Below are positions 17,980 through 37,150 of a stretch of 54,907 bases of DNA, one piece after another (the stretch's first letter is position 1; each line of letters begins with the position of its first letter). Position numbers and translations under genes: made by a program. The notes under the pieces were generated by a model that saw nothing but the letters and a program-made list of their open reading frames with translations, had not been told where the DNA came from and did not search any database. This stretch comes from Planctomycetaceae bacterium. GTDB lineage: Bacteria > Planctomycetota > Planctomycetia > Planctomycetales > Planctomycetaceae. The stretch spans positions 1-54,907 of the forward strand of contig CANJQC010000017.1 in the NCBI GenBank assembly GCA_947476295.1. Direction: 5' to 3'.

Positions 17980-18139
17980 GTTTCACCCGTCACATATTTG
18001 CACGGTGCGAGAATCACTGTGGCTGGCCACTGAGTTGCTGGGATTTTCGCCACGCCACGCAGATCCGCTGTAGTGCTGACAATTCAGCCCTGCGCCAGCA
18101 ACTTCTGCATCTGGGGAGAAGCCTGAGGCCGAAGGCCTT

Positions 18140-18280
18140 GGACTGCGGCAGCCTGCTGCCGCTTTCGTGCTCGCGGCCTGCTGCGGCATTTGGGATCGGG
18201 CATGATTTTTGGCTCGAGCCCCGTCAACCGGTCGGCCAGCAGGCGGGCTGGTGAAAGCGGCAGCAGGGCTGCCGCACTCC
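18140..18280. repeat. REP/BIME-like inverted palindromes
   Basis: 18140-18166 and 18253-18280 are the same ~27-base sequence in opposite orientation with one mismatch and one indel. Each is itself a hairpin with a perfect 7-bp stem GCGGCAG/CTGCCGC. This is the layout of a BIME made of two inverted REP elements. It lies just upstream of the RAYT transposase remnant, as expected of RAYT-mobilised REPs. Confidence 0.75.
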
Positions 18281-18325
18281 AAGGAGCGTTGACGTTTCGG
18301 AGGCGGAGTCAACATACTGGGCAGC

Positions 18326-18775: not shown

Positions 18776-19300
18776 TCATTGTTTCCCGAGATCGTTCTGC
18801 AAGACGACTAAGACGGAGAATCCTTCAAATCGCACCGTCACCGCATCGCTTGACTCAGCAGATTTCTTCATGATCGCACGCCCTTCCTCAACCCGAACGA
18901 CTCGCTTTCCAGCAGCAATTAAAGCATTGGTTTGTTCAAGACCGAAAAACGATAGTTCGCCGATGGTACTAAAGCGAAGTCCAACTTCGACGAGTTCCTC
19001 AGGCATCGTTTGAACTGGTCCTTCGGAGTCTTTTTTCTTCAATGCAAGCTCAATTTGTTTACTCCAGTCACGGAATCCGAGTACCGTTGCCTTTGCGTGC
19101 GAACCAATCGGCGGAAAATCGTCCGGCGTGCGAAACCCGTCTTGATGCATCCGCACTCGTTCGATGATTCCAATCAGCCCTGATGTTCCCAATGTTACTA
19201 ATACGCCAAACGGTGCGTGTTGAACGATGCAGCAATCCACAGTCGTTCCAACTTTAATTTCGGCTTTGGCGTTATTCCATTTATTGAGGCTATTGTCCAT
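18776..19300 (-). CDS. S1-like OB-fold protein, putative immunity partner of the RHS tip
   Basis: The 174-residue protein starts at the ATG at 19298-19300, inside the last 11 bases of the giant RHS gene and six bases after GGAGG. A longer frame upstream runs through RHS coding sequence and is rejected. Residues about 15-85 (VGTTVDCCIVQHAPFGVLVTLG, GLIGIIERV, GSHAKATVLGFRDWSKQIELALKK) match the S1/OB-fold pattern. The C-terminal half (about 90-174) is a second, unassigned beta-rich part (RVVRVEEGRAIMKK, VTVRFEGFSVLVVL). There is no signal peptide, so it is cytoplasmic. Position and coupling to a polymorphic-toxin-like gene suggest immunity; that role is inferred. Confidence 0.75.
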   Translation of the reverse strand: MDNSLNKWNNAKAEIKVGTTVDCCIVQHAPFGVLVTLGTSGLIGIIERVRMHQDGFRTPDDFPPIGSHAKATVLGFRDWSKQIELALKKKDSEGPVQTMPEELVEVGLRFSTIGELSFFGLEQTNALIAAGKRVVRVEEGRAIMKKSAESSDAVTVRFEGFSVLVVLQNDLGKQ

Positions 19301-19650
19301 GAAGCCTCCGAATAGCATTGTTAAGAACGTCGAATTCGCTATGCGGAATTGGTATTTCGATAAACCTGGGGTCAGATATATATGGAACCTCAAGGGGTCG
19401 GATGCGGGCGTCGTAGATGGCGTTTGGAATCTGGACCTCCAACACACTTTGCCCGTAGTGTGTCGCATACTCCTCGGCCAACTGTCGCTCTTTGGCGAAG
19501 TAAGCTCGCAGGTCACCTTCTGCAAAGTCATGCGGATGAAACCCATCGACTAATAGCTTTTGACCCTTGCCCGGTTGGGGGGCCTTAAAAATGCTCTGAG
19601 ATCCATCCTTTTGTCCACGCCCCCAACCAAACGCCCCATACCCGGTCTGA
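19290..19650 (-). other. C-terminal tip of the RHS protein, possible ADP-ribosyltransferase-like toxin
   Basis: The last ~120 residues contain GQKLLVDGFHPHD, then LRAYFAKERQLAEEYATHYG, then VLEVQIPNAIYD. The order 'exposed His/Gly turn, YFAxxxxxAxEYA, beta strand LEVxIP' is reminiscent of ADP-ribosyltransferase-type toxin tips. I cannot assign a family firmly and cannot point to a catalytic Glu with confidence. Its position after the RHS core and before a coupled small gene is the argument for its being the effector. Confidence 0.4.
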
Positions 19651-22600
19651 ATCGAGCCTACTTCGTCCGCCCAGAGTGCCCGCCCGGTTGATGCAAAAAC
19701 GTTTCGAGACTCTTCAAACACCTTTGCAAGTCGGACTTCGCTTGCAAATTCGCCAGCCACTCCTCCGGTTGCCCAAGTCATCATTTCGGTGGCATACATC
19801 AGTCTTGCTCTTCCTGGATCACGATCCGGATCATACCCGGATGTGCGGTAGGCCGCGTAGTTCTGCTGCATTTGCCCGTGTCCCATGCGATCCAGGGTGG
19901 GGTCACTTCTCTGATCGTTCAGGAGAGACATCCCTGCGCCGAATGCACTGAATGGGTCCAAGGCTGTGGTGAACAAATCATCGACACGTGACGCCGAGTT
20001 GTATTCGCCAAAACTGGAATAGTACACGTCCTTGTTCATGGCGAGGAGCAGGGCAGTGTCTACTTCCTGCATGAACGACATTGCTCCGAATGAATATATG
20101 TCCGCAGTTTCGACTACCTCAGCGAATCGCTGTTTGTCACGTTCGTGGGCGGTAGCCATTCCGTCAGATCCATACATATAGTCCTCGGATTGACTTCGGT
20201 CGTACTCCTTTGTCGCTGCGAGCTGTTTTCTAAGGTAGTTGGCAGTATCCCGTCTGCCCGCTTCAATTGCCTTTTCAATGTCACGCTCCATGTCTGCGTA
20301 AACGTTTGCGCGACTCTTGACTGGGCCATTCCATATTTCCTCGTACGCCAGATGGTCCATGAACGCAGCGACTTCTGCTTCGAGCGGAGTGAGCGTGCGA
20401 CCGACTCCTGCTTCATGTAGCCTTTGCTCCGCTATTCGCACATCCCCAAAACCATCCGGGTTGTATCCTGCCTGCTCAATATTTCGAGCTTGGGCGGCCA
20501 CCGCTGGCGTAGGCCGCAGCGCCTCAAGCGTGGTTCGCACAGTCTGAGCCGCCATCACCGCTTCAGTACCAGTGTTCCAAACTCCGGCCGCGATGCTCAG
20601 CGAACGCAGGGCTTGTTGCAACCCACGGTCGCCGGTACTGGTGACGGAGGCACCGCCGACGGCGAGGTTGAGGCCAACGCCGAAACGGGTGGCGGTGGAG
20701 GCTTGGGTGTTGAACAGGGTGCTGCCGTGGTTGACGCCGAGGTTTGTGACATGTAACAGGCTCGACAGTGTGCCGTCGCCGATGTATTTGCCGGAAGCGA
20801 TTTCATAGCCGGAAGTGAGTCCTGCAGCCGCACTGGCGGTTCTGCCCAGCGTCCAATATTTTGCGGACGTGATTGAACCCGTTGAGCCAGTCGGCAAGTT
20901 GCCGTAGAATCCACCGGTCACGGCGGCGGCGGCACCGAGGAATCGACTGAATGTGCCGTCACCGATCTGATTGCCGGAAAACACTTCGTACGAGTTCACC
21001 GCTCCGGATGCAAAGCCCAGCGAACCGGCGACGAGGCCCATGCCAGCTAAGCCGCCAAATGCCAGGGCGCCGCCGGATGCAATCGTGCCTGCAACCAGCA
21101 GACCTTTCTGGATATTGCCGTTGTCCCACTGCTTTTCGACAAAATCGCCGACGTCTTCGAACGCATTGCCAATCTGCTTAGCCGTATGACTCAGCCATGA
21201 CAGTCCGCTCGGGTCCGTCAGGTTCACAGGATCATTCGCTGAGTAGCGGGTCAGGTTCGTATCACCGGCGCCAAACCGCAACGGGTCTTCACCGATGAAT
21301 TCACCAGCCACCGGGTCGTACCAGCGGGCTCGCGCGTAGTACAGTTGGCTGTCAGCATCCCATGCGAGTCCGCTGAAGAACTGGTCATAGTCAACAGCGG
21401 CACCCGTTTGCGACGTGATCTTTCCGAAGCTGTCGAGCTTGCGATGATCCAGGTTTACGGCCGCCGAGCTGATTACATCGCGAGCTGTCCCCGTCCGATC
21501 TTCCAGCGGCCACAGGACTCCGCTGAGTACCGTCTGATCGGCAAACACCTGATCCAGAGACGTGCCATCGAAGTATTCATGCTGAATGGCTCCGGCGGTG
21601 TCCATCATGGCCAGCAGTTGATCGCCATCCCAGACATAGTTCTCGGACACGACTGCCTGTCCCGGGACGGTCAGCTTTTTGTTGATCCGATTGCTCGAAT
21701 CGTCATATGTGTACTCAACCGTCTTCGCCAGTGTGGACGTTCCGCTGACAGGCGCGTTATAGAACTCAACCTTCGTGAGTTGATTGCGATGGTCCCATGA
21801 GTACTGCACGTACGCGCCGGTCGCTGCACCGCTGACGAGAGTAGTGCGGCGTGTCACATTGCCGTTGGCATCGTACTGCCATGCATACGTGCCATCGTTC
21901 AGAACACGATTGCCTTTGCCGACAACCGTGGAACCCACAATCCTATTCCCCGTCTTGTCATACGCATAAGCTTCGCTGGTGCCCTGAGTTTTAGTACTCG
22001 ATGTCAACTGGCCATAGGCGTCGTATTCGTCCGTGCTGGTTCCGTCGAGCGACGAGGTTTCCTGCAACAGGCGATCGTCGGCAAAGTACGTGTACTGGTA
22101 CGAGATGGGCAAACTGCCGGACGGCGCGGGCTTCGTGTGCGTGATTGATTGCAGTCGTCCGGCTGAATCCTGCACAAAATCCGTTTTCACCACAATTGTG
22201 GTCTGTGTCAAATCCGAATACCGAGTGATGGTCTGCAGCGAACTGTCGGCTCGGTAATCGAGTTTCGCCGACTTGTTCTGCCAGTTCGGAAAGTTTGTTG
22301 ATGCGGTCTGCGACAGTTTGGTGAGTCGATTTAGATAATCGTACTCCGTGTAGTTTGTGGTAACCGTGATCAGAGACGCACCGGCACCCGTCTGCTGAAC
22401 TCGCTGCGTGCGATTCCCGAACGCATCGAACTGATACGTAAGCTTCGCAGCCGACTGGCCGGGCGTGGTGACGGTGTCGTACACGATGACACGATCGAGA
22501 TCGTTGAGTACCAGCGACGTCAGGCTGAATAACTGGCCTGTCGCCTGATTTCGCTGCTGTGTCCACCACAGACGATTATAGTTGTCGTACCAGTTTTCAA

Positions 22601-25600
22601 TTTGTGAGACAAAAGCCACGTTCGTGCCGCTTGGCTGCAGCCATTGTTCGTGCCGCACATTGTCTAGGTTGTCGCGCACATACTGCGTCCGGTAACCTCG
22701 CCGATCCGTGATCGCTGCGACATTTCCCACCAGGTCGAATTCGTAGACGATTGAGAGTCTGTTCGGATCGGTCTCCGAAACCATGTGGCCTTGTGCATCA
22801 AACTGCCAGCGAGTGGTGTTGAATGATGCATCCGTCAACAGGATTTGATTGCCATTGTTGTCGTAAAGGTATTGCGTGATTCCGCCGTTGGCATCAATTA
22901 CAGAGGTGACTCGGTCCAGACGATCGTAGCGATTGACGGTGGTGTTGAAAACGCCGGCAGACGACAGAACGGCAGACAGCGGATCTGGTTTTCGCCGTGT
23001 TTGCGTCATGGCTGCGTTGCCGGCAGGATCGTAGACGTACCGAGTTTCCGACGGAATTTTGTCTGCCGTTGCGCCACCGACAATGCCATCCGGGTCGGCT
23101 CCGACGATTCTGACCTGGCGATCCAGATCGTCGTAGAAATACGTTGTGACGCGCAGAAGCGGATCGGTGCTGGTAATCAGGCGTCCGACCAGATCGAAAG
23201 TGTTCACGCTGACCGGCCCGCCGATGATCGCTCCAGTCTGAGGATTCTGTGACTGCGTCTGCACCAGCCGGTTCAGCATGTCGAATACGAACTTCGTGAT
23301 CTCCTGCGGTGCCCCGACGGCTGTGGACGTGGAAGTGACGGTGGTTTGGTTGCCGACTTTGTCGTAACCATAAATCGTGACCGACTGTGCCGCTCCGCTG
23401 GTTGGAGCGGGCAACGTCGTTTTGGTGACACGATTCAGATAGTCGAATTCGTTCTGCGTGATCCGGTTCATGCCCGCAGTGATGTAGTCCGTCGTCATCA
23501 GCACATTTCCGACCGCATCGTATGAAAACAGTGTTGTCGGTCGGACTCGCCCCAGCCCAACGCCGTCAGGGTCCGGCAGTTGTTCCTTTGTTTTGCGGTT
23601 GAGTCCATCGTATTCATAATTGGACGTCCGACCCGCTGCGTCTGTGGTTGCAACCATGTTCCCGGCAAGGTCATACGCATACAGAATCACCGGACGTCCG
23701 AGCCGATCATTGGGACTGGCATCCGGCAGCGTCATTGATTTCAATCGATTGAGCTGGTCGTATTCATAGTCTGTGACATTGCCCATCGCGTCGGTCGAAC
23801 GGATCTTGTTGCCAGCGATATCGTAGACCACCGTGCTGGTCGGGGCGGCCAGTGAATCCTGCAGATCAGGATCCGCCTGGGTGAGTGAGATAACTCGATT
23901 TCGCGTGTCGTAGGCCGACACGGTCTGTCGGGCCAGCTGATCGGTGGTTGACAAGAGATTGCCCAGCACGTCGTATACGGATGTCATTAGCGGTGCGGGC
24001 AGCGGTCCCTGAAGTCCGTCCGGATCAGGCGACGTGGTGGTCAAAGCACGATCGAGCAGGTCGTACGTCTGCGTCGTGATTCGCCCCAGCGGATCGATCG
24101 TGGCTGCCAGATTTCCCGCTGTGTCGAAGCGGAACCGCGTGACGGGATTTGTGTCGTTGACGTTTGTCGTCGCTTTAGGAGCAATCTGAGTGATCTTGCG
24201 ATTGAGTCGATCGTATTCAAACGTTGTCGTGCGTCCTTCGGCATCCGCCGCCGTCAGGACATTCCCGAGGAGGTCGTACGTTTGAGAGGTCAGTGTCTGA
24301 TCAGCCAACTGTTGAGTAGTCAGCGTCTGACCATCGGGAATGCGTTCACCACGGATGGCACTGCTGAGCGGTCGATTCAGGGCGTCAAAGGTCTGAACGG
24401 ATTCTGTCCAGACTTCGACGTTGCTTGCGTTGCGACTGACAAGAATCTGTGTCTTGTAAAGGTTTCCCGCAATGTCATAAGCAAACACGGATTCCGGACG
24501 TGTGATTCCGGAACCCGGCACTGGCGAAATTGTGCGAATCAGCCGGTCAAGGTTGTCGTATTGCGATTCGGTGACGCCACCACGCGGATCTGTCACGGAC
24601 TTCACGTTACCAAACTGATCGTAAGTCGTGGTCGTCGTGGGCCGACCGTAGCTGTCAGCGGCTGCCTGCTGCACCTTGATCAGCTGGTTCCAGCTGTTAT
24701 AGCTGTAATCTGTGGAATTGCCGCGAACATCTGTCGTCCGCGTGGAATTCCCCGCAAGGTCGAACCACGTCTGTGTGACGGCCCATCCAGTATCATCCTG
24801 AACGGCAGTAAGGACAACGCGATTCAGTGCGTCATATTCGAAGCGCGTGACATGTCCGAGAGCATCAGTCTGGCGGGCCAGGTTTCCGTTGATGTCATAG
24901 ACGACAGTCACGGAAGCAGCGGTTTCGAAATCGTTGGTAAAAGGGTCCGGACTGGTGGTCCGCATCAGCCGGTTTAGATTGTCGTAGGCAGACGTCGATT
25001 GACGGCCCAACTGGTCAGTGACGCGAATCACATTGCCGACGGCATCAAACTGTGTTTCACTTGTGAGAGCCCGCAGCCCCGACCATTCCGCACCGTCCGG
25101 ATGCGGCGACACGGTGAAAACCGTACGTCCCAGGGCATCGTGTTCAAAGTTTGTGGATCGGCCCAGAGCATCAGTAGACTGCTTGACGTCGCCGAACAGA
25201 TCGTACGTTGTCATCGACGTCGGGCGAGCTGTGCCTGTGCCATTGGCGACGGCTGGTAACTCGGATTTGATCAGCAGGTTCCGTGCATCGTACGTGTAGT
25301 TTGTCGTGCGGTTCAGAGCGTCTGTCGATGCCGTTAGATTTCCGGCAGCATCAAAAGACCATTGCAGGACAGGTGAACGGACACCGTTGCCGAGAATGTT
25401 ATCCGGGTCCGGCAGCGTAGTTTTTGTCTTCAGATTCTGCGAGTTGTATTCGTGAACTGTTCGCCGATCATCTGTAGTGAGCGACGGATTACCCTTGTCG
25501 AGTTCTTCGAGCAGATTTCCGAAGGCATCAAATGTGAATGTCATCACCAAACCGACGAGCGCGCCGTTTCCGTCTGGATCCGCCTGTGTGGTCGAAATCA

Positions 25601-28600
25601 CCTGGCCGAACATGTCACTCCGGGAGACCGTGACACGTTGCAACGGATCTGTGGCTGTCGCGATATGCCCGAGCGCGTCGTACGTCCATGACCATACTGG
25701 GCTGGCAACAACAACCGTCCCTTCGGCACCTGAGGAAACCGATGACATGGCCGGGGCGGTCTTCTGAATAATGCGATTCAGCGTGTCGAACTGAAATGTG
25801 GTCGTGTTACCTGCGGGGTCGGTGGCTGCAATGACATTCCCGGCGGGATCGTAGGCCGTCGTGGAGAAGGGCATGACGATCTTCGCAACGACGGCGAGTG
25901 ATGTCGATGATTCCACAACGCTGACCGCTGGCAGCACCTGCCGCACAGTGCGATTCATGTTGTCCAGCAAATTGAGTGTGCTGCGGCGGGACGCATCAAT
26001 CGTTTCGACCATGTTGCCAGCCGGATCGAAGGTCACGCGCGTTACAAAGCCCACTGCGTTCTGAGATGCCACAGCACGACCGAGAGTGTCAAATGACGTC
26101 TTGCTGATTCTGGCCACTTCGCCGGACACAGGAGCCGTCGGTTCACCATTGGCGTCCCGCAGCACAGCCTGACTCGCGTTGAGGGAATACGGCGTTTCGA
26201 GAACCTCAACGACTCGTCCCATCTTGTCGCGTCGCATCACACGCGAGATGCCTTTAATGTCGGTCGCCCCGGCATACGGCAGTGCTTCGAACTGCAGGCC
26301 GCCCGCCAGGTCGTAGCCGAACTGCGTCCTAGCGCCTCGCACATCGGTAGACGTCGTCAGCAACATACCGAGTGAATACGACTTCGATGAAATATTCTGT
26401 GCCGCGTCCGTCCCGGAAACAGCCTTGTCACGGAAGTCGTACGCGGTTGATGCAATCCGCTTTCGGGTGGCATTCACGGTGTCGCTCTCCGCTCGCGTCA
26501 CAGTGGCGTCCGTCAACGTAGCAATGCTTGCCGCTGTCATCAGAACCGGATCGGGGCGCAGGTCGATACTGTCGAGCCGTTCCTGATTTCCGTTGGCGTC
26601 GTAGAAGATGTGATCGACACGCACTTTTGCGCGGACAGTAGTGCCGTTCGTCGTCGTTGTCGTTTCGAAAAGTGTCTGCACCGGCTGGTGTTGGGCGTTG
26701 AATGTCGTGGTCACGACACCCATAGCCGTTTCGACCAAATTCTGATTTCCGAATGCGTCGTACCCGTACGTCGTGATGTTGCCAGCGGCGTCCGTGGTCT
26801 TCGATAAGCGTCCTGCCAGGTCATACTTGTAGCGAATTTCAGAACCGAGTTCATCGAATTCACTGACCAGATCACCTTTCGCGTTGTAGACAAGTGCTCG
26901 CGTCGTTCCGTTCGCGAAGATCGTCTGCGACAATCGGTTCAGGACGTCATAGACAAAAACAGTTTTGTTGCCGTTCGCATCAATCTGAGCGGCGACAGTT
27001 CCGTTTGCGTTGTACTCGACAGAGGTAAATGTGCCGTCAGGACGGATTTCCCGCAGCACTCGACCGGCATTGTCGTATGAGTAGCGGTAGATCGAACCGT
27101 CCGAATTGATACGACGTTCCAGCAGGCCATTCTGACCGTACAGGTACTGCGTCCGCAGAGCGGCGCCGGCGATGTATGGATCCGGCGACAGAGTTTCGAG
27201 CAGACGTTTCAGTGGATCGTATGCAAAGTTCGTACTCGGCTGGAGAATACCGTTCTTGTCGTAGTCTTTGACATAATCGACGCTGCCAGTGTTATCGCGC
27301 ACGGACGCATCCGAACTAACGGTTGTCAGCACTCCATTCGCGAACTTTCGGTGATCGACAACCTGTGGATTTCCGAAAACATCGTAGCCCAGACGATCAA
27401 ACTTTGTGGAATGCCCCTGCGCGGAGGTTATCTCCGCCACAAGGCCCTGTGCTGTGTAGGTGTACGACGTGGCGTTGGAAAGTGCGTCTGTGGACGTGGC
27501 AAGGCCACCCTTAACCCCGCCGCTTCCTGTCAGATCAAAGTAGATATTCGTAAGGATGCGTCGCAGCGTCCCGTTTGCAGATTCTTCATCGATCGTGGCC
27601 ACCTGGTTGTAAACTGGATGGTACGTCATGATTTGTGAAATTGCGGCAGCGTCCGTGTGCTTTGTTGCATTTCCCTTTGCGTCATACTGCCAGCTTTCAG
27701 AACGACCATTTGTGGCCGTTGTCTTCGCGACTTGCCGGACGTTCGCAGCCATATCATAGATCGTTCGTTCGCCGCTTTGTGAAATGGATGTCACCAGATC
27801 ACCAAAGTCCGAGAACTGGTTGGTCGTCACATAACCAGCCGCATCGACAACCGACGTGAAACGGTCATATGCGTTGTAGATGAACCTGGATTCTCCGCCT
27901 TCCGCATCACGAATACTCCGCAGGCGTCCGTTGCCGTAATACTCGAATGTCGTCGCAAAAGCCGTGCCCGTATCCGTTGCATCTCCCGCATATCCGGACG
28001 CCGATTTCATTAGATGTTCGAGTCGATCTCCTCGCTGCGGCGTTTGAATCGTGCCGATTTTCTCGTACCAAACATAGTGATATCGGGACAGGGTTGACGC
28101 GAGCTGCACTGCCGCTCCGGTTCCTGAATTTTCTGACACTTTGACATGGCTGAGATGACTTCCTGCATCATAAGAATAATCCCAAATCCGCGTTCCCGAA
28201 ATCCCTGCGACTGGTGCGATACCAGTGGATGATGCAGGTATCTCAATTCGCGTGATCAGGGCATTGGTGTACGTGAATTTTGCCAGAATTCTTCCCGCCG
28301 GTGCAGCATCAATGATCTGCGTGATTCGTGTCGGAACTGCAGCATCCCGCTGAATCAGCATTTTGTTTCCAAATCGATCGGCAATAGAGATCAAAAGCGC
28401 TTTGGTCTGGCCAGCCTGTCGAATGGCCTGCGTGTTAAAGTCCTGGAACCCGTAGACCGAGCCATCCGCCATGACGACTTCGTAAAAATCGCCATATGAC
28501 AGCGTGGGTGCTACGCCCCCATCAAGGCGACGCACGATGACTCCCGGGATGTTAAGAGGGCTGTCATAGTCAGCGGATAGTGCGGTCTTAGTTCCGTTGG

Positions 28601-31600
28601 GAATGAAGATCCCCGTGGAGCCGTCATCTCGTCTCCATGCAATCGAGGTCGCTTCACCTTTGCGACTGCCATTGATGTTGACTGGCACCGTGATTTGACC
28701 GAAGCGATAATTCTTCTGAAACGAGTAGGCTGCCGCGTCAGTGATTGTCGTAATATCCAGTTGCTGCGAGAAGGCGCTCGACCACCCGCTCCCAAAATCC
28801 CCGAGATTACTGACATTCACAATACTGTCAGTAGAACCAACGTCACTCCTCGACGAAGTCCATGTCCGAGTCAACGGAATCGACATTCCAGGGATCGACA
28901 GTGTAAAGTCGGTGTCGGATTTTCGAAGAATGCCCTGATAGCCGTCTGGTGCTGCGCCGGAATTCTGCAATTGAGAGAAATCTGCCGACAACGCTCCGCC
29001 TTCAGCGTCGGTTATTCCACCGTGCAGTACCCGACCATTCACCGTTGACGCCATCAGCGATTCAATGATCGGCGTAGTACCCGAATAGTTTTCGTGCAGC
29101 CAAGCAACACCCGTCCATGTTCCAATCGACTCGATCGATGTCGAGACAGTCACGACTCCACCAGCGTTCAACTGGTCATTGATAAGCGTGTAGGCCGCAC
29201 CCTGATACCCGGTTGTCGCCAGACCAAGGATACTCGACAAAGTCACTCCCGCCGGAATGGAGCCCCATTCATCGAAATATGTACTCCCCGCGGCTTTCGT
29301 CAACCTTCGCACAGTGTGGCCATTCAACCGTGCCTGAGAAAGCAGCGTTAAAGCGGAGGTCGCAGGTTTGTCGGAAAGTTCTGAGAGCAATTCATGTTCA
29401 CCTGCCGACAATTCGGCAAGTGTCAACAATGCACGAGACTGCTGAACTGCATCCGATTGGCTTACGGCACCACCATTGCGAGGAACGTAGAGCAGCTTTC
29501 CGATTGGGAAGTCAACGGTCATGTCTTTGGGGCGAATGAAGTAGACGGAGTCGGGCTGAATCACAAAAGACCGCCCCGAAATTAATCCCACACTCACCGA
29601 AGGTCGTACCAGAATCGAATTTGTCAGCTTTGCAATTTCGTTTTCAGTCTGTTCACTGGTCATCAACAACCGCGAGGCTGAGTATGAGAGCGTCTGCCGC
29701 GTAATTTCCGATGTGTTGTACCCATACGCGAGGTAGTCGTTCCCGAACGCACCACCTAACACGGGAATCTCATCATAAGCGTCGGCAAGTTGGTCACTAA
29801 GGTTGGCCACATCCGTCGCCGAGTACTGGCCGGCCCCAAGAACGACCTGTGACGAATATCCCGGCACAAGTGCAAGAATCTGGGTCTCCGGAGCGCTGCC
29901 GGGAGTTTGGCGAACATCAACCTGCAGTCGCACCACTCCGGACGGAATTGAGAGCGAAGTTCCATAGTCAACGCCGTTAATCTTCAGACTCCCTTGTCTC
30001 CCCATTCCATCTGTCCAGACGACAATATTTTTTCGGGACAGTTCAGCGATTCTGGTGGGGATCAGCAGACTTCCACCCGGCGAGCCAGCTACCCGCTGCG
30101 CGATGCTTCCATCGAGTGCTATAAAACTGAATGTGATGGTTTGAAACTCTTTGGGGTTCCAGCTTGGAGATGGCAAAGAGTCCGGCGATGTTGATGCCAC
30201 CAAGGAAACAGGAACAGTCGGCTGAGTAGTTTGTATGATCGTTCGCGTTTGACCAATTGCATTTGCGCCCGCTCGCACTGACGGATCGGCACTGTGAAGT
30301 TTCTGATTGATCATCCAGTCCAAGGGGCTTGCGGTCGCAACATGTGTACCCGTGAATTGGATATTATCGAGGTAGTGGTGACCGGCACCGCCAGTATAGA
30401 TTCCGAACCGCCCGCCCGCTGGATTGGTTAAGAGAGTAGCGACGAGTTTTCTTTTTTGAGTCGTGCCCGCACTGTCTCGCCATTGAACAAACGCGGTGAG
30501 TACGCTGCCATCAATTGTGAGTTGGACACTGCACGGCACCAAGCCACTAACAGCTACTGGTGAAAACGCAGGCGCATCGGTCGGATTTTGAGTTGCTGTG
30601 ACGCCATTGAGAGGCAGAGTGCTCGTCCCTACTCGATCATAGAGCTGTGGTTCCTGCGACAAACCACCAGACCAACTAACCCCTACTTCATAGTTGTCCG
30701 TCGCTCGGGCGAAGACGCGAAAGTCCTGAGCCGCAGCACCATTCACCGCTTGAGCAAAAATGCTGGAAGAGAGCGTTCCATTAACCGCAGCCTCATCAAC
30801 AAACATATTCGTCGGATTGGAATGACTGGTCAGTATCTTATAGTCATCGACAGATCCCAACTTCGGCCATGTCGGATCGGTTACCGCAATCGCGCCTCCG
30901 GAGCTGACCTTCAACTCAGTTGGAATGGAAGCCAGATTGTAGTCAGTGACGGCGCCTCCAGCGTCAAAGTCCGCCGAAAAAGAATTCGTCACCGGATTCA
31001 GGTAGGCGTTCAGATCCGTGGCCGTGAGCGGCGCAGTGGCGATCTCCGAGGCTGGAGCGAGTGACGCTTTGAGTGCCGAATTTAGATCAACCCAGCCCAG
31101 TCCTGTTGCTGTCGGCAGCCATGCACGAAGCCATGCATGATCGATCGTGATCGGATCCGCATTGACCAGCGGGGTTGGATTTAAACCGGCCTGTAAAAAA
31201 TAGTCGATAGGAATCGTCTCGGTCGTCAGCCAACTCTTGACCTGGTAAGCATTCAGCCCCATTCGACCTGTCACGTACTCAGTTTTCGTGAGCGTGTCAT
31301 TTGCGATCAGCGTTCCCAGCAGGTTCGTCTGATCCCATGCATTGCCGGATTTGGTGGACAGTGTGCCGTCCGCACCCTTCTTCAAGCCGCGATAGGCTTC
31401 GAATTCAATCGTGTTGTGAACGAGATGAAATGCCTGAAGCACCGACCGCGTGCGATAGTTGTAGTCCGAGACAACGACACCGGAATCCTGAAGTTGAATC
31501 GCCCACGGAGTTGTTGGATTGACTTCCCAGACTGTCGGAGTGCCAAAGCCAGCCGCGCTGGCCCGCGCCACCACCGATTTTCCGCTGCCATCAAATCCCA

Positions 31601-34600
31601 CGAGATCCGGACGGCCATCGCTGTTCATGTCCACGATGGCCGTGTTGCCTGGCATACCGCTGACTGCAGGCCACGTCACCCCCCCTGCGGAATCCTGAAA
31701 CGAATTTTCACGCGAGAACACAGCACGCAGGCTGGATCCCACCCAAGCAACAATATCTTCTTTGCCGTCAGCATCAAGGTCGGCTACTAACGATGTTGCA
31801 CTGACATTCGCCTGCAAAAGAAATGCGGGCGCTGCCCAGGTCTGAGTCAGAAACGACGTGCCCGTCGAGATACTGGCGATCCACTGACCCGTCATATTAT
31901 TTTTGGCAATTATGTCCTTGCGGCCGTCACCATTGACATCAATCGCTGTTTGCCGCGAATAGACGTCATTGGTGCCAGAACTCAAGTTAAAACTAAACCC
32001 CGATGTCCATACGGTTTGTTCAAAAGACGTGCCCGTCGAAAGTGCTACTGCCCATTGCTGACGGACAGAATTGTATGCCGCAATGTCATCGCGGCGATCG
32101 CCGTTAAAGTCTCCTGCCAGGTAATTCTGCCACGCCGATGTATTTGCTGGAGGTATGCCGGTTGTTGTGGTAATCCCATACCCTTCCGACCACTGAGAAA
32201 CTCGACCGTTGACACTGGTCCTGACAAAAACTGTGTATTCACCAGCAGCCAGTGCTGCGAGGGACTCCGTGAAACTTGCCACTGTATTTTCGACTGCAGA
32301 CCGCGTGATCGTCGAAACCACGCGAGGATAGCTGGTAGCCGCTTCATTAAGCACAACCTGCAACTCGTAGGTTCGAAGGGCGTTTGAATTGGGCGACGAG
32401 ACTGCGTTCCACGAGAGAACGCTGACCTGCGAATCCCACGCCAATACGGGCAGGTCTGGATTGAGCAACCCAGTCACCGGAGTGGTAATTTTTTCGAACG
32501 CGCCGGACGTGCCCGATCGCATCACCGACCAAATGCCAGCACTCATGTCTGGCTGAACAAGATCATCGCGTCCGTCCCCGTTGAAATCGCCTATCAACAA
32601 TGGCGCGCTGGACTGACTTGAAATAAAGTCAGAAAAATCGCCAGTCCCGTTCGCATTCCATGTGCTCGATGCCAGTGCCGTGGAGTTGTTGATGGAAACT
32701 GTTAATTCACCATTGGATAAATTCCGTTTGACAAGATCTAGATTCCCATCGCCGTCAAAGTCACCGCGAAATGGTCCCGCCACGTTTGGTGCGGATGTCG
32801 TTTGAGCTGCTCCAGGGGCTTGCAGCGTGTTGACTCTGTTGCCATCAAAATAGAACACCGGGCCGTTCGCCCAGCTCGGTGCAGACGCTGGAGTCGTATG
32901 TGGTCCCACATCAATTCGATAAAGACCAGGGGCGAGACCCGCATGGACCGCATACGAATTTCGAGTCGCCGAACTTGACGCGACGAAATACTGTTCTCGA
33001 AGTACTTCCGCTTGTGGTTGCTCGACACGCATAATACGAATATCGGCGAGGCCTGACTGGGTGCTGTCCCATTCGACGACAGGTGCCTGAGATTGATTTG
33101 AGAGAGAAATATGCAGCAAGTCTGGTATCGGAAGGTTCAATTGAGCGGGAATGATGAATGGAATTGCCGCAGACCAGTTACCAAATAGAGCTCCGGAAGA
33201 ATCCCGTGAGATATACCAATAGACGTATGAACCAGCTTCCAGCGGAGCATGATGCACATAACTGTTCGCCGGCACGTTCACACTCGGGAAGCACTGCGCC
33301 GTTTCAGTGCCGGGAATGGACAAATCCTGTTTGGCAACCCAAAGGTCATACGACGCTGCTCCCGATATACTTGGCCATGTGAATTGTGGTGCCTGATTCT
33401 GGGTAGTTCCCGTCGGACCAGCAGCAACGATAAAGTCAGCAGACGAACCGGAAATAATCAGATTGTTCGCAAGAGTTGCCTCGACCCAGCCATAATAAGT
33501 TCCTGCGGCAAGGGACACATCATGCGCATAAAATGATCGCGTCAGCCCGACCTTATCGACGACAGCCACCTGCGATGCGGCTATGGTCTTGTCGATAATC
33601 TTGACGCGATAAGAAACGGCAGTGGCATATGCAGTCCACTCAATCCGAGGCAGCCGCACGTCGGAGCCTGTGCTCAGCACGACGGAAATTGCAGGGGTCT
33701 TTGATACTAGGAACTGCGCAGCATTGGACCACACTCCCACTTTGCCATCTGAGTAGACCGGTCTCACCCATGTCTTGTATGTGGCTCCCGCAGCGAATCG
33801 ATTATCCAGACTAAAGAATTCCCCTTGACGGAATTCGCGAGCCAATGAGGGTTGGGCTGTGAAACTCCCTGTCGCCATACGATCAATCCATACATCGTAC
33901 CGTGTCGCACCGTTGACGCGCGCCCATAACACCTGTGATCCGCTGGCTCCCTGAACAAAGGTCGGTGGCGTCGGTTTGTAAGTTGTCGAAGTGACCTGGA
34001 AGTTGCCAGTTATCACAGACTGAAGTGCAACAGACGCATTCAATGTGTCAAATGATTTGATTGTCACGTTGTAGGTGCCCAACGGCAGAAGCGGCGGCGA
34101 GAAGCTTGTGACTCTTGTTCGCTCCTGGAACACAATGGTTCCTGCAGTGGACTTAAGTGTAATCTCGTAGGTGTCGGCCCAACCAACGGCATTCCATACG
34201 ATCGCCGAAACTCCGTTCACTTGTGCGCCTACAGGACTGGCTGAAATCTGTGGCCGATACGATGTCGATGATATAGTGAACGGTAATGCCACGCTCCACG
34301 CAAGCGGCTGGTCTGTTGCATCATATCCCCGCACTCGGGTGCTGTAGTTGCCAGCGGCCAGAAATCCACTTCGGTATTCCGTTCCGGCCACTGATGCTGT
34401 GGTTGTTGCCGTCCCCGAAATCTCGACGTCATAGCGGACTGCTGTCGGAACGGGACTCCACGACAGGAATGAACCTTGTCCAATGGTTATCGAAGTACTG
34501 TTCCAGACAGGGATAAATGAGTCTAAGCCAACGACAGAAAAGTCCATCGGGGCCGACCAGATGTTCGGTGGCCCATTCAGATCACCCACCCAGACGCGGT

Positions 34601-35300
34601 AATCACCAGTCGCCAGATTTCCTTCGTAAACTCCACCCTGCACTGACCTTGGTGCCAAGTCGGCAATCTGCAGATATTGGGCGGGTGTGCCGGACTTCTT
34701 TCCTATCCAAACATAATACGAATTGACACCGGGCAGTACCGTCCACGACAAAGAAACAGCCGAGCTGACAACTGGAGAATTCGGAGTATTGTACCCGACC
34801 AGTCGCTGACCAGAAATTCGCAATAGTTGAGGCGTTACCTGTGAGATAACAAACGTATTTGTTGTCTGCGTGGAAACACTTCCGTCCAGGCCACGCGATA
34901 CAAGCGAGACGGAATACGATCCGGCCGGGAGTGGCTCGGTGATCTTATACGTTTCCAATTCGCCCGGTGTGGAAGCGGCGGACAATGCCGTTTCGTACAA
35001 GACATTCTCCGCACCACCGCCAGCAATTCCGGTTCTGGTGACAGTCATGTCGAAACTCGCCGCTGGACTTTGTTGCGGCTGTACCCACTGAACGGTCACT
35101 GCGGCAGCTGTGGTTCCGCTATTGACCAGCAATGACACTGGCGGCTGCACAAGCAACTGCCGCTCCTCAAGGGTCTCGCAACTGTGTGAATAATCACTTC
35201 GATGCCGGAATTGCCTTCGATGCGATGCACGCACAAGGGACTTGCTGAACCGCAAAACGTTTCGAAGGCCCGCAAGAAATTCGCTTGACGTCTGTGCCAT
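19290..35300 (-). CDS. Giant RHS/YD-repeat protein, candidate polymorphic toxin (5336 aa)
   Basis: The start is the ATG at 35300; a TTG two codons earlier is possible. Domains in order, with approximate residues: N-terminus with the CETLEERQLL motif of planctomycete secreted proteins (about 45-52); fibronectin-like beta-sandwich repeats (55-830); six FG-GAP-type calcium-binding-like repeats (GDFDGDGNLDLV, GDFNGDGRDDLV and similar; 840-1240); a transglutaminase-like remnant (DHAWLRAWLPT...GWVDLNSALK, about 1385); a LamG-like region (1500-1650); an RHS entry module (about 2115-2190); dozens of YD/RHS repeats (to about 4650); the RHS core end (EFIGEDPLRFGAGDTNLTRYSANDPVNLTDPSGL region, to 4703); and a 630-residue C-terminal region with a hydrophobic Gly/Ala part and a variable tip. 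RHS shells encapsulate and release a C-terminal toxin. No PAAR or VgrG marker is seen, so the export route is unknown. Confidence 0.93.
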   Translation of the reverse strand: MAQTSSEFLAGLRNVLRFSKSLVRASHRRQFRHRSDYSHSCETLEERQLLVQPPVSLLVNSGTTAAAVTVQWVQPQQSPAASFDMTVTRTGIAGGGAENVLYETALSAASTPGELETYKITEPLPAGSYSVSLVSRGLDGSVSTQTTNTFVISQVTPQLLRISGQRLVGYNTPNSPVVSSAVSLSWTVLPGVNSYYVWIGKKSGTPAQYLQIADLAPRSVQGGVYEGNLATGDYRVWVGDLNGPPNIWSAPMDFSVVGLDSFIPVWNSTSITIGQGSFLSWSPVPTAVRYDVEISGTATTTASVAGTEYRSGFLAAGNYSTRVRGYDATDQPLAWSVALPFTISSTSYRPQISASPVGAQVNGVSAIVWNAVGWADTYEITLKSTAGTIVFQERTRVTSFSPPLLPLGTYNVTIKSFDTLNASVALQSVITGNFQVTSTTYKPTPPTFVQGASGSQVLWARVNGATRYDVWIDRMATGSFTAQPSLAREFRQGEFFSLDNRFAAGATYKTWVRPVYSDGKVGVWSNAAQFLVSKTPAISVVLSTGSDVRLPRIEWTAYATAVSYRVKIIDKTIAASQVAVVDKVGLTRSFYAHDVSLAAGTYYGWVEATLANNLIISGSSADFIVAAGPTGTTQNQAPQFTWPSISGAASYDLWVAKQDLSIPGTETAQCFPSVNVPANSYVHHAPLEAGSYVYWYISRDSSGALFGNWSAAIPFIIPAQLNLPIPDLLHISLSNQSQAPVVEWDSTQSGLADIRIMRVEQPQAEVLREQYFVASSSATRNSYAVHAGLAPGLYRIDVGPHTTPASAPSWANGPVFYFDGNRVNTLQAPGAAQTTSAPNVAGPFRGDFDGDGNLDLVKRNLSNGELTVSINNSTALASSTWNANGTGDFSDFISSQSSAPLLIGDFNGDGRDDLVQPDMSAGIWSVMRSGTSGAFEKITTPVTGLLNPDLPVLAWDSQVSVLSWNAVSSPNSNALRTYELQVVLNEAATSYPRVVSTITRSAVENTVASFTESLAALAAGEYTVFVRTSVNGRVSQWSEGYGITTTTGIPPANTSAWQNYLAGDFNGDRRDDIAAYNSVRQQWAVALSTGTSFEQTVWTSGFSFNLSSGTNDVYSRQTAIDVNGDGRKDIIAKNNMTGQWIASISTGTSFLTQTWAAPAFLLQANVSATSLVADLDADGKEDIVAWVGSSLRAVFSRENSFQDSAGGVTWPAVSGMPGNTAIVDMNSDGRPDLVGFDGSGKSVVARASAAGFGTPTVWEVNPTTPWAIQLQDSGVVVSDYNYRTRSVLQAFHLVHNTIEFEAYRGLKKGADGTLSTKSGNAWDQTNLLGTLIANDTLTKTEYVTGRMGLNAYQVKSWLTTETIPIDYFLQAGLNPTPLVNADPITIDHAWLRAWLPTATGLGWVDLNSALKASLAPASEIATAPLTATDLNAYLNPVTNSFSADFDAGGAVTDYNLASIPTELKVSSGGAIAVTDPTWPKLGSVDDYKILTSHSNPTNMFVDEAAVNGTLSSSIFAQAVNGAAAQDFRVFARATDNYEVGVSWSGGLSQEPQLYDRVGTSTLPLNGVTATQNPTDAPAFSPVAVSGLVPCSVQLTIDGSVLTAFVQWRDSAGTTQKRKLVATLLTNPAGGRFGIYTGGAGHHYLDNIQFTGTHVATASPLDWMINQKLHSADPSVRAGANAIGQTRTIIQTTQPTVPVSLVASTSPDSLPSPSWNPKEFQTITFSFIALDGSIAQRVAGSPGGSLLIPTRIAELSRKNIVVWTDGMGRQGSLKINGVDYGTSLSIPSGVVRLQVDVRQTPGSAPETQILALVPGYSSQVVLGAGQYSATDVANLSDQLADAYDEIPVLGGAFGNDYLAYGYNTSEITRQTLSYSASRLLMTSEQTENEIAKLTNSILVRPSVSVGLISGRSFVIQPDSVYFIRPKDMTVDFPIGKLLYVPRNGGAVSQSDAVQQSRALLTLAELSAGEHELLSELSDKPATSALTLLSQARLNGHTVRRLTKAAGSTYFDEWGSIPAGVTLSSILGLATTGYQGAAYTLINDQLNAGGVVTVSTSIESIGTWTGVAWLHENYSGTTPIIESLMASTVNGRVLHGGITDAEGGALSADFSQLQNSGAAPDGYQGILRKSDTDFTLSIPGMSIPLTRTWTSSRSDVGSTDSIVNVSNLGDFGSGWSSAFSQQLDITTITDAAAYSFQKNYRFGQITVPVNINGSRKGEATSIAWRRDDGSTGIFIPNGTKTALSADYDSPLNIPGVIVRRLDGGVAPTLSYGDFYEVVMADGSVYGFQDFNTQAIRQAGQTKALLISIADRFGNKMLIQRDAAVPTRITQIIDAAPAGRILAKFTYTNALITRIEIPASSTGIAPVAGISGTRIWDYSYDAGSHLSHVKVSENSGTGAAVQLASTLSRYHYVWYEKIGTIQTPQRGDRLEHLMKSASGYAGDATDTGTAFATTFEYYGNGRLRSIRDAEGGESRFIYNAYDRFTSVVDAAGYVTTNQFSDFGDLVTSISQSGERTIYDMAANVRQVAKTTATNGRSESWQYDAKGNATKHTDAAAISQIMTYHPVYNQVATIDEESANGTLRRILTNIYFDLTGSGGVKGGLATSTDALSNATSYTYTAQGLVAEITSAQGHSTKFDRLGYDVFGNPQVVDHRKFANGVLTTVSSDASVRDNTGSVDYVKDYDKNGILQPSTNFAYDPLKRLLETLSPDPYIAGAALRTQYLYGQNGLLERRINSDGSIYRYSYDNAGRVLREIRPDGTFTSVEYNANGTVAAQIDANGNKTVFVYDVLNRLSQTIFANGTTRALVYNAKGDLVSEFDELGSEIRYKYDLAGRLSKTTDAAGNITTYGYDAFGNQNLVETAMGVVTTTFNAQHQPVQTLFETTTTTNGTTVRAKVRVDHIFYDANGNQERLDSIDLRPDPVLMTAASIATLTDATVTRAESDTVNATRKRIASTAYDFRDKAVSGTDAAQNISSKSYSLGMLLTTSTDVRGARTQFGYDLAGGLQFEALPYAGATDIKGISRVMRRDKMGRVVEVLETPYSLNASQAVLRDANGEPTAPVSGEVARISKTSFDTLGRAVASQNAVGFVTRVTFDPAGNMVETIDASRRSTLNLLDNMNRTVRQVLPAVSVVESSTSLAVVAKIVMPFSTTAYDPAGNVIAATDPAGNTTTFQFDTLNRIIQKTAPAMSSVSSGAEGTVVVASPVWSWTYDALGHIATATDPLQRVTVSRSDMFGQVISTTQADPDGNGALVGLVMTFTFDAFGNLLEELDKGNPSLTTDDRRTVHEYNSQNLKTKTTLPDPDNILGNGVRSPVLQWSFDAAGNLTASTDALNRTTNYTYDARNLLIKSELPAVANGTGTARPTSMTTYDLFGDVKQSTDALGRSTNFEHDALGRTVFTVSPHPDGAEWSGLRALTSETQFDAVGNVIRVTDQLGRQSTSAYDNLNRLMRTTSPDPFTNDFETAASVTVVYDINGNLARQTDALGHVTRFEYDALNRVVLTAVQDDTGWAVTQTWFDLAGNSTRTTDVRGNSTDYSYNSWNQLIKVQQAAADSYGRPTTTTTYDQFGNVKSVTDPRGGVTESQYDNLDRLIRTISPVPGSGITRPESVFAYDIAGNLYKTQILVSRNASNVEVWTESVQTFDALNRPLSSAIRGERIPDGQTLTTQQLADQTLTSQTYDLLGNVLTAADAEGRTTTFEYDRLNRKITQIAPKATTNVNDTNPVTRFRFDTAGNLAATIDPLGRITTQTYDLLDRALTTTSPDPDGLQGPLPAPLMTSVYDVLGNLLSTTDQLARQTVSAYDTRNRVISLTQADPDLQDSLAAPTSTVVYDIAGNKIRSTDAMGNVTDYEYDQLNRLKSMTLPDASPNDRLGRPVILYAYDLAGNMVATTDAAGRTSNYEYDGLNRKTKEQLPDPDGVGLGRVRPTTLFSYDAVGNVLMTTDYITAGMNRITQNEFDYLNRVTKTTLPAPTSGAAQSVTIYGYDKVGNQTTVTSTSTAVGAPQEITKFVFDMLNRLVQTQSQNPQTGAIIGGPVSVNTFDLVGRLITSTDPLLRVTTYFYDDLDRQVRIVGADPDGIVGGATADKIPSETRYVYDPAGNAAMTQTRRKPDPLSAVLSSAGVFNTTVNRYDRLDRVTSVIDANGGITQYLYDNNGNQILLTDASFNTTRWQFDAQGHMVSETDPNRLSIVYEFDLVGNVAAITDRRGYRTQYVRDNLDNVRHEQWLQPSGTNVAFVSQIENWYDNYNRLWWTQQRNQATGQLFSLTSLVLNDLDRVIVYDTVTTPGQSAAKLTYQFDAFGNRTQRVQQTGAGASLITVTTNYTEYDYLNRLTKLSQTASTNFPNWQNKSAKLDYRADSSLQTITRYSDLTQTTIVVKTDFVQDSAGRLQSITHTKPAPSGSLPISYQYTYFADDRLLQETSSLDGTSTDEYDAYGQLTSSTKTQGTSEAYAYDKTGNRIVGSTVVGKGNRVLNDGTYAWQYDANGNVTRRTTLVSGAATGAYVQYSWDHRNQLTKVEFYNAPVSGTSTLAKTVEYTYDDSSNRINKKLTVPGQAVVSENYVWDGDQLLAMMDTAGAIQHEYFDGTSLDQVFADQTVLSGVLWPLEDRTGTARDVISSAAVNLDHRKLDSFGKITSQTGAAVDYDQFFSGLAWDADSQLYYARARWYDPVAGEFIGEDPLRFGAGDTNLTRYSANDPVNLTDPSGLSWLSHTAKQIGNAFEDVGDFVEKQWDNGNIQKGLLVAGTIASGGALAFGGLAGMGLVAGSLGFASGAVNSYEVFSGNQIGDGTFSRFLGAAAAVTGGFYGNLPTGSTGSITSAKYWTLGRTASAAAGLTSGYEIASGKYIGDGTLSSLLHVTNLGVNHGSTLFNTQASTATRFGVGLNLAVGGASVTSTGDRGLQQALRSLSIAAGVWNTGTEAVMAAQTVRTTLEALRPTPAVAAQARNIEQAGYNPDGFGDVRIAEQRLHEAGVGRTLTPLEAEVAAFMDHLAYEEIWNGPVKSRANVYADMERDIEKAIEAGRRDTANYLRKQLAATKEYDRSQSEDYMYGSDGMATAHERDKQRFAEVVETADIYSFGAMSFMQEVDTALLLAMNKDVYYSSFGEYNSASRVDDLFTTALDPFSAFGAGMSLLNDQRSDPTLDRMGHGQMQQNYAAYRTSGYDPDRDPGRARLMYATEMMTWATGGVAGEFASEVRLAKVFEESRNVFASTGRALWADEVGSIQTGYGAFGWGRGQKDGSQSIFKAPQPGKGQKLLVDGFHPHDFAEGDLRAYFAKERQLAEEYATHYGQSVLEVQIPNAIYDARIRPLEVPYISDPRFIEIPIPHSEFDVLNNAIRRLHGQ
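21195..21340 (-). other. RHS core boundary (conserved C-terminal RHS motif)
   Basis: This stretch encodes YYARARWYDPVAGEF, then GEDPLRFGAGDTNLTRYS and NDPVNLTDPSGL, the hallmark that ends RHS repeat shells and marks autoproteolytic release of the C-terminal domain in characterised RHS toxins. Everything on the minus strand below about 21195 is the variable C-terminal part. Confidence 0.85.
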
Positions 35301-35548: not shown

Positions 35549-37150
35549 CTATCCAGCCAGTGTCATCAATCGTTGTTCAAGTTCATCGATGAGTTCGCCA
35601 AAGGTGCGACCGGTGCAGGAAGTGGGAAGTTCGAGGGCTTCGCCTCTTGTTACCAAGTCGTTGACTTTGCGTTCTGCTGCGACGACTGTGCTATGGTCTC
35701 GACCGCCGAAGTACATGCCGATCTCGCGGTACGCGGACTTTGTCATCCGACGCGACAGAAACATGGCCACCGCACGGGGCAGGGCAATGGCTTTTCTTCG
35801 GGACGCTGAACGAAGATCGGCAGCTGTCACGCCGAACGCATCGCACACGATTTTTTCAACATCACTGATTCGCACTAGGCGTCGGCATTCGTCTGCCATC
35901 TCGCCCAGAACTTCACGGGCGACGGTGAGCGAAATACGGCGCCCAGTCAAGGCAAACTGGCCTTCCAGTTGGTTGATTGCACCCTGGAGTTCGCGTGTGT
36001 TGCGGCGACAGCGGCGGACGATGTAATCGAGCGCCTCATCCGAAAACGCAGCCTTCGTTCCCAGCACCATTGATCGCACAAGTTTGTGCCGCGTCTTTTC
36101 ATCTGGTGCTTCAACGCGACAAACCAATCCGCTGACGAATCGAGTTGTCAATTCTTGACGATGTTTGGTAAGCATTCTCGGATGCCGGTCGGACGACACG
36201 ACAACCTGACCGCCGTGTTCGATCACCTGTACGATCGTGTGCAGGAATTCTTCCTGGGTCGCACGCTTGTTGTCCAGAAACTCGATGTTGTCGATCAGCA
36301 GTACATCGACGTTGCGAAACCGTTGCCGAAATGACGGGACCGTACGAGATGTCAGCGCGGATGTGAAATAGTTGGTAAAGGCTTCACTGGTAAGGTAAAT
36401 AACGTTCTTTGTCTGATGCTGGCGACGTGCTTCCGTATAAATGGCTTCCAGCAAGTGTGTCTTGCCGGTCCCCGTTCCGCCGTGAATGAACAGCGGATTG
36501 TAGCGTTCGCCCGGCGAGGCTGAGACTTGTCGTGCGGCAAGTGATGCAAGGTCGTTGCATTCGCCCGACACAAACGAATCGAAACTGCGGAACTTACGGC
36601 GGTTTTTCGGCAGCGTTAATGATCCCGGACGATCCAATTCAGACGACGGCTGCGAAGGAGTGTTCGTGCGTTTTCGAGTCGATGATGAACCAGTCGCTCC
36701 AATTGCTAAGTCCCCGTTCTTCTGATTTGCAGCAGGGGTTTCAACGCTTGGCGTGGATTCACTTGCGAACGCAGTCGCTGACTCCACCAGCAGCAATTCA
36801 TCCACTTCCAACTGACAGGATGCAGACGGCCCCAGCACAAGCTGAGCTGCTCGGTTCAGTGCGGAACGGAATCGGCGAAGTAGCCAGTTGAGGATAAACG
36901 GATTGGCGACGTATACGACGAAGCGGTCACCGGAGACTTCAAAGCGAGTTCGTTCATGGAACCAGTGTTGAAAGTTCTGTTCACCTATGTCGTCGCGAAG
37001 CGAAGCGAGAAGTGCGGTCACAGAATCGTATTTGCGGTGTTCGACTGCTTCCGTCAGATTATCGTCATAAGCCTTGTCCGAATCTGGCTGCGCAGGGGCC
37101 AGCTTGATGGTAGAAGTTGGAATGTCGTCGTGACTCTCGGGCTGCGCCAT
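35549..37150 (-). CDS. dnaA: Chromosomal replication initiator protein DnaA
   Basis: The 533-residue protein has all four DnaA domains. Domain I is at about residues 35-110 (IGEQNFQHWFHERTRFEV, FILNWLLRRF). A variable linker is at about 110-185. The AAA+ domain has Walker A GGTGTGKTH (about 223), Walker B LLIDNIEFL (about 284, N where most have D) and sensor SSDRHP. Domain IV has the DnaA-box signature FGGRDHSTVVAAERKV (about 480). It binds DnaA boxes and opens the origin. The ATG at 37150 has an upstream GGGAGGGG; a GTG six codons earlier is an alternative. The usual partner dnaN is not adjacent. Confidence 0.97.
   Translation of the reverse strand: MAQPESHDDIPTSTIKLAPAQPDSDKAYDDNLTEAVEHRKYDSVTALLASLRDDIGEQNFQHWFHERTRFEVSGDRFVVYVANPFILNWLLRRFRSALNRAAQLVLGPSASCQLEVDELLLVESATAFASESTPSVETPAANQKNGDLAIGATGSSSTRKRTNTPSQPSSELDRPGSLTLPKNRRKFRSFDSFVSGECNDLASLAARQVSASPGERYNPLFIHGGTGTGKTHLLEAIYTEARRQHQTKNVIYLTSEAFTNYFTSALTSRTVPSFRQRFRNVDVLLIDNIEFLDNKRATQEEFLHTIVQVIEHGGQVVVSSDRHPRMLTKHRQELTTRFVSGLVCRVEAPDEKTRHKLVRSMVLGTKAAFSDEALDYIVRRCRRNTRELQGAINQLEGQFALTGRRISLTVAREVLGEMADECRRLVRISDVEKIVCDAFGVTAADLRSASRRKAIALPRAVAMFLSRRMTKSAYREIGMYFGGRDHSTVVAAERKVNDLVTRGEALELPTSCTGRTFGELIDELEQRLMTLAG

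Follow-up and report, generated by a model that had tools for sequence, protein, structure and literature searches.

A giant planctomycete RHS protein with a predicted ADP-ribosyltransferase-fold tip and an overlapping S1-like gene: a probable polymorphic toxin-immunity pair

The window analysed here is the whole 54,907-nucleotide stretch of contig CANJQC010000017.1 in the assembly GCA_947476295.1 of a Planctomycetaceae bacterium, and the system under study occupies positions 18776 to 35300 of it. It consists of a gene for a giant RHS protein of 5336 residues, which forms one uninterrupted minus-strand frame from 35300 to 19290, and a gene for a 174-residue protein, whose start region contains the RHS stop codon in an 11-base overlap; both are as described in the initial annotation of this DNA, which read them as an RHS toxin with its immunity gene. 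The locus very probably encodes an RHS polymorphic toxin with a tip of predicted ADP-ribosyltransferase (ART) fold, which is blocked by the S1-like protein of the overlapping gene; this reading is supported by the swapping of tips, the predicted fold of the tip and the S1-like gene found beside all of the 48 further tips examined. The features discussed below are the following (pLDDT, predicted local distance difference test).

18776..19300, minus strand: putative immunity gene, 174 residues, two domains (open frame; structure model pLDDT 86.7)
18779..19000, minus strand: second domain of its product (residues 101-174), a stand-alone gene elsewhere (separate genes in locus L028 and on an Oscillatoria plasmid)
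19025..19300, minus strand: S1-like putative immunity domain (residues 1-92; S1 fold and sequence profile)
19290..19300, minus strand: 11 bases shared by the end of the toxin gene and the beginning of the immunity gene, ATGGACAATAG
19290..35300, minus strand: giant RHS polymorphic toxin gene, putative, 5336 residues (stop-free frame; 5368-residue ortholog in the same genus)
19293..19601, minus strand: predicted ART-fold toxin tip (residues 5234-5336; family profile match 5234-5335; model pLDDT 88.7; structure matches)
19602..20525, minus strand: variable linker or pre-toxin region (residues 4926-5233; no convincing match in the ortholog tail)
20526..21203, minus strand: post-core region kept with the shell (residues 4700-4925; 58% identity to the ortholog by blastp, 59-67% in 150-residue bins)
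21201..21434, minus strand: RHS-associated core (TIGR03696, 64.7 bits against a cut-off of 32.5)
31599..31781, minus strand: FG-GAP_3 repeat, the best of five stretches (residues 1174-1234; Pfam PF13517, E 3.4e-17 for residues 1-1767)
35151..35171, minus strand: N-terminal LEERQLL motif (residues 44-50; read from the translation)

The RHS shell and the exchange of its tip

To locate orthologs, 170 genomes of the order were searched with the stretch between the FG-GAP and RHS repeats. Five genomes match, three of them strongly, namely that of the window and those of two congeneric bacteria (G126 and G117); the G117 ortholog ends at a contig end and says nothing on the tip, and that of G126 is complete with 5368 residues. 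Identity to the G126 shell is 37-67% in 150-residue bins up to residue 4950, except for one bin with just 54 residues aligned (31%). The approximately 225 residues that follow the core are among the best conserved (58% identity by blastp from residue 4654 to about 4945); homology ends at about residues 4925-4945, and the G126 tip beyond is unrelated. Since the post-core homology extends to about residue 4925, the variable part comprises about 410 residues and not the roughly 630 post-core residues proposed initially, a wholly variable tail being ruled out. The initial annotation had also held that a C-terminal region conserved across planctomycete RHS proteins would speak against a toxin; such conservation is found for the first 225 or so residues, and the remainder is swapped in the one complete ortholog.

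The small gene of G126 overlaps or abuts the RHS stop and is unrelated to the small protein of the window (no match). Thus, an immunity-type gene lies directly downstream and changes with the tip, differing in G126 and being of the same S1 type where a tip of the same type occurs elsewhere. In Candidatus Bandiella, a hemagglutinin-repeat protein ends in a match to the G126 tip (E 3e-8; 39% identity across 63% of the 106 residues used as query), and its gene likewise overlaps a small gene. As the shell is conserved between these close relatives and the tip and small gene are not, the swapping of a tip together with its neighbour on a conserved shell is, as judged from the sequences, the signature of a polymorphic toxin.

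The shell carries RHS/YD repeats ending in the RHS-associated core; two neighbouring segments of the frame contain 14 and 16 stretches of RHS repeats. Of the FG-GAP and FN3 parts expected from the initial annotation, the former were recovered by Pfam and the latter were not found by Pfam in residues 1-1767. The LEERQLL motif resembles the export-type N-terminus of planctomycetes, which we take to be the one named LEPR-XLL; it has no NCBIfam match above cut-off, and LEARQLL and LEQRQLL occur near the N-termini of the two same-genus orthologs. A PAAR domain, which marks type VI Rhs effectors, has no match in residues 1-3600 (Pfam, E<0.1), and the linker (residues 4926-5233) has no match in Pfam, NCBIfam or PADLOC. 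Ahead of the core, Pfam hinted at a deaminase (E 0.013, under the cut-off), which was dismissed as noise arising in the RHS repeats. The 252 contigs of the assembly, which is 99% complete, contain neither another RHS-associated core nor a second match to the RHS tail or to the gene of the 174-residue protein.

Predicted fold and distribution of the tip

The toxin tip comprises the last 103 or so residues (5234-5336), and the structural matches of its AlphaFold model include the ART Rhs toxins RhsP2 and TreX with moderate scores. Judging by titles and general knowledge, 49 of the 50 Foldseek matches listed (the exception, row 47, being a CNFy fragment) and all 50 VIA matches listed are presumably ARTs; an ART fold is thereby predicted for the tip. 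Residue conservation was assessed over 44 rows: of 55 tips, one duplicate and 11 truncated, broken or divergent sequences (E above 1e-20) were removed, and the window was added. In the model, the near-invariant K5239, Y5267 and E5315 lie in fitting strands and may correspond to a catalytic triad, with Lys in the place that His or Arg takes in the H-Y-E and R-S-E types. The window tail and the L027, L031 and L049 tips gave no toxin-family match in those of the Pfam, NCBIfam, PHROGs and PADLOC libraries in which each was searched; for the tip of the same-family genome G020, Pfam matched the HINT part alone and a PHROG match was at chance level (E 0.3). The ribosomal protein bL17m was rejected as a relative, the tip profile giving only E 0.14 and 0.18 against PDB sequences. 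Phage terminase matches are weak (E 0.04-0.3), and two scans of viral contigs returned no tip relatives. Base composition was considered as a sign of capture and dismissed: the third-position guanine-cytosine content of the tip is 0.524 against a mean of 0.586 for stretches of equal size, and as 22% of these are as low, this lends no support to capture.

The last 100 or so residues match the C-terminus of an RHS protein on a Streptomyces globisporus plasmid (L027; 42%, E 5e-15) and a PT-HINT-linked domain in G020. A scan of genome contigs yielded seven tip loci: three from records of cyanobacterial genera, two from Streptomyces, and one each from a Pirellulaceae metagenome-assembled genome (MAG) and from a Planctomycetaceae MAG, which is apparently G020. 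A two-row tip profile matched the window's own genome alone among 392 genomes of the phylum; a seven-row profile matched 40 of 388 genomes in the class of the Leptolyngbya record and 20 of 392 in the genus of the Streptomyces record, fragments included. From among the best matches in cyanobacteria and Streptomyces, 48 further loci (L043-L090) were fetched, two pairs of which have identical tip ends; the matches lay at 44 and 21 places, respectively, some of which yielded no locus or duplicated earlier ones, and L035-L042 were left out because they repeat loci or genomes already used for the S1 profile. The tip is a free-standing open reading frame (ORF) of 100-170 codons in 27 of the 48, all cyanobacterial, and part of a long fused frame in 19, the remaining two having a shorter frame and no tip ORF, respectively. 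All ten tip-bearing frames scanned (nine from Streptomyces and the cyanobacterial L046) contain the RHS-associated core. The tip terminates RHS proteins in Streptomyces and is mostly a free-standing gene of about 120 residues in cyanobacteria. On contig 125 of G020 (L024), PT-HINT cassettes form an array in which the carriers are near-identical and the tips differ, perhaps a store for tip switching.

The free-standing form was analysed in 29 pairs (28 cyanobacterial and one from Pirellulaceae, two with identical tip ends). The ratio of nonsynonymous to synonymous substitution rates (dN/dS) has a median of 0.116 for tips and 0.093 for partners, calculated from the 79 pairwise comparisons, out of 406, in which dS was usable, and the sequences thus point to purifying selection on both. 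Genes upstream of these pairs are mostly different at each locus. A midpoint-rooted tree of 43 tips unites the free cyanobacterial tips in a single clade and places the tip of the window together with Pirellulaceae and RHS-fused cyanobacterial tips. The cyanobacterial form consists of two small adjacent genes with no carrier, which is the layout of type II toxin-antitoxin systems, and the pair is in this respect like a toxin-antitoxin module.

The S1-like partner and its second domain

The first half of the 174-residue protein is a ribosomal-S1-type domain by predicted fold and profile, in agreement with the S1 fold assigned initially; the model of the whole protein has a predicted template modelling score of 0.51, with a low-confidence linker at residues 92-97. 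On the Streptomyces globisporus plasmid, the ORF beginning at the RHS stop is S1-like (L027 4309-4578); it is absent from the plasmid's gene table, which is incomplete. An S1-like gene lies beside the tip in six of the seven scan loci, the seventh (L034) holding only the start of a tip next to a transposase-like reading, with the rest of the tip and the S1 gene on another contig (L039). With a profile built from nine partners, L043-L090 not among them, an S1-like gene was detected beside the tip in all 48 further loci, at E<=1e-3 in 44 (42 by way of a position filter, plus L084 and L085, which the filter missed) and more weakly in L090 (0.0015), L086 (0.016), L087 (0.024) and L043 (0.14). The remaining ORFs of 100 codons or more in the same loci, 264 in total, served as controls, and 5 of them have an S1-like neighbour. 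For 38 of 45 loci with a measured spacing, the partner lies -4 to +5 bases from the tip. Distances among tips correlate with those among partners (r 0.96, 43 loci), which co-inheritance predicts. Tip and S1 gene are near-universally paired in the examined loci of three phyla.

The small protein of the window also matches 11 loci in planctomycete relatives (L003-L013), some of them small S1 genes and others larger proteins or matches to its second half, and none of them has a tip ORF in flanks of up to 1.5 kb. A small gene found mostly without RHS neighbours was, in the initial annotation, to count against the toxin-immunity idea; the planctomycete matches indeed have no tip within these flanks, and given a tip, RHS-fused or free, the S1-like gene is there in 48 of 48 further loci. 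Tip-less S1-domain genes are expected because S1 is a common domain. The full protein gave four weak matches among plasmids. A second S1-type partner gene with no tip beside it (L030 6958-7284) is a candidate orphan immunity gene.

By sequence, two domains are fused in the 174-residue protein. The second one exists as a separate 71-codon gene directly after the S1 gene in a Pirellulaceae MAG (L028) and a 72-codon gene on the Oscillatoria plasmid pOSC7112.01 (hhalign probability 98.5, E 2.9e-15, for that comparison alone), where the surrounding array (L093) contains a 22-kb giant gene with immunoglobulin (Ig) domains followed by HINT, Imm5 and AHH toxin/immunity cassettes. Nine of the 170 genomes of the order have this domain, among them that of the window; in the other eight, it begins proteins of about 270-285 residues, with TPR repeats in the two scanned. 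A microbial PARG gene (PF10021) lies upstream of the second-domain protein in the two loci scanned (L099 and L100, E 2e-49 and 1e-48). By eye, PARG was also noticed upstream in L096-L098, L101 and L102; PARG removes ADP-ribose. The second domain may serve as an additional immunity unit or as an adaptor.

Several other elements flank the two genes. An element of about 150 bases at 18134-18286, just past the immunity gene, has inverted ends of about 33 bases, resembles miniature inverted-repeat transposable elements or repetitive extragenic palindromes, and has copies of 77% and 80% identity on two other contigs and a partial copy on a third. A secretin gene with a pilus-type N-terminal domain (12766-14853) lies on the opposite strand about 4 kb from the immunity gene, and a DnaA gene (35549-37168) immediately precedes the RHS gene in the same orientation; inspection by eye of the 8 kb upstream of the G126 ortholog showed no DnaA-like gene.

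Proposed mechanism, rival explanations and known systems

We infer export, delivery, ADP-ribosylation of a target with use of nicotinamide adenine dinucleotide (NAD+), toxicity and direct binding by the antidote. The RHS shell, with the LE-x-RQLL motif common to the orthologs, would be exported and would carry or present the tip at its C-terminus; having entered a competing cell, the tip would modify an essential target using NAD+; and the S1-like domain would bind and block the tip in the producer and its kin. RhsI2 occludes the active site of RhsP2, a type VI effector of Pseudomonas aeruginosa, according to PMC11833690, and active-site covering is thus the default expectation for the immunity protein here.

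A different role for the S1-like protein is suggested by the phage T4 ART ModB, which modifies S1 domains (PMC10468400). Because of this precedent an S1-domain antidote is suggestive of a decoy, whereby the tip would modify an S1- or OB-fold component of translation or RNA decay, for example ribosomal protein S1, and the immunity protein would mimic that target. This is unlikely, since the immunity family does not conserve the Arg that ModB modifies in S1 loops and immunity proteins such as RhsI2 can block active sites with no target mimicry (PMC11833690). An extension of the decoy, in which a trans-phylum miniature ART family is countered by a borrowed, unmodifiable S1-type copy of its target and serves both as RHS weapon and as internal cyanobacterial toxin-antitoxin module, is likewise doubtful. 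Alternatively, the tip may ADP-ribosylate RNA, the S1-like protein protecting by binding RNA or the RNA site of the toxin; diphtheria-type protein ARTs rank equal or higher by VIA, and an RNA-shielding antidote would be hard to square with general protection, which makes this rather improbable.

The pair could also be at heart a toxin-antitoxin module acting in its own cell, of which the RHS-fused copies are captured modules or remnants. The 28 cyanobacterial loci, in which the pair stands as two small genes with no RHS motif run upstream (up to 1.5 kb), agree with this, as do the dN/dS of about 0.1 and the single clade of free cyanobacterial tips; a loose RHS pattern matched once each in four of the 29 free-standing loci. 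However, the tip lies in frame at the end of RHS proteins in Streptomyces and in the window, the window's shell swaps tips and the tree has a midpoint root only, and we consider this explanation quite improbable. Very remote is a structural or adhesive RHS protein with a non-toxic C-terminus and an S1 gene that is an unrelated RNA-binding regulator overlapping it by chance: planctomycete S1-domain genes with no tips do exist, but the swapping of tips, the finding that the tip also rides on different carriers or stands alone as a gene, and the S1 partners at 48 of 48 loci argue against it.

Beyond the initial annotation, the present analysis adds that the toxin has a predicted ART fold, that the pair extends to three phyla and occurs free-standing in cyanobacteria, and that the small protein fuses two domains. 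If the RHS toxin-immunity reading is true, it adds an ART toxin clade with no match among the model libraries searched, provides the planctomycete RHS giants with a concrete toxin-immunity pair, and presents a single module with two uses, as a tip delivered by RHS proteins and as an independent pair of genes. The ribosomal-S1-type domain would then be an immunity type unnamed in the portion of PMC3482391 searched, and the immunity fold would be a direct clue to the target of the toxin.

Among known systems, RhsP2-RhsI2 of Pseudomonas aeruginosa is an Rhs ART toxin acting on RNA with its immunity protein, and the window tip is 8% identical to RhsP2. TreX-TriX of Xenorhabdus bovienii and Tre23-Tri23 of Photorhabdus laumondii are further pairs; Tre23 is carried on a PAAR/VgrG type VI effector, whereas the window protein has no PAAR match. 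The ParT-ParS and RES-Xre toxin-antitoxin pairs employ other antitoxin types than that seen here. In the case of T4 ModB, S1 domains are the substrates, whereas at the window locus the S1-type protein is the presumed antidote. An S1-type immunity protein is not described in the literature searched, including the accessible part of PMC8195603, a coverage that excludes subscription papers and preprints, and the terms S1 domain, S1-like, OB (oligonucleotide/oligosaccharide-binding) fold and ribosomal protein S1 are absent from the first 300,000 of the 357,715 characters of the catalogue of Zhang et al. 2012 (PMC3482391). In its organisation, the locus is like the systems in that portion of the catalogue, which combine a carrier, a swappable tip and an immunity gene and include several Tox-ART clades and numbered Imm families.
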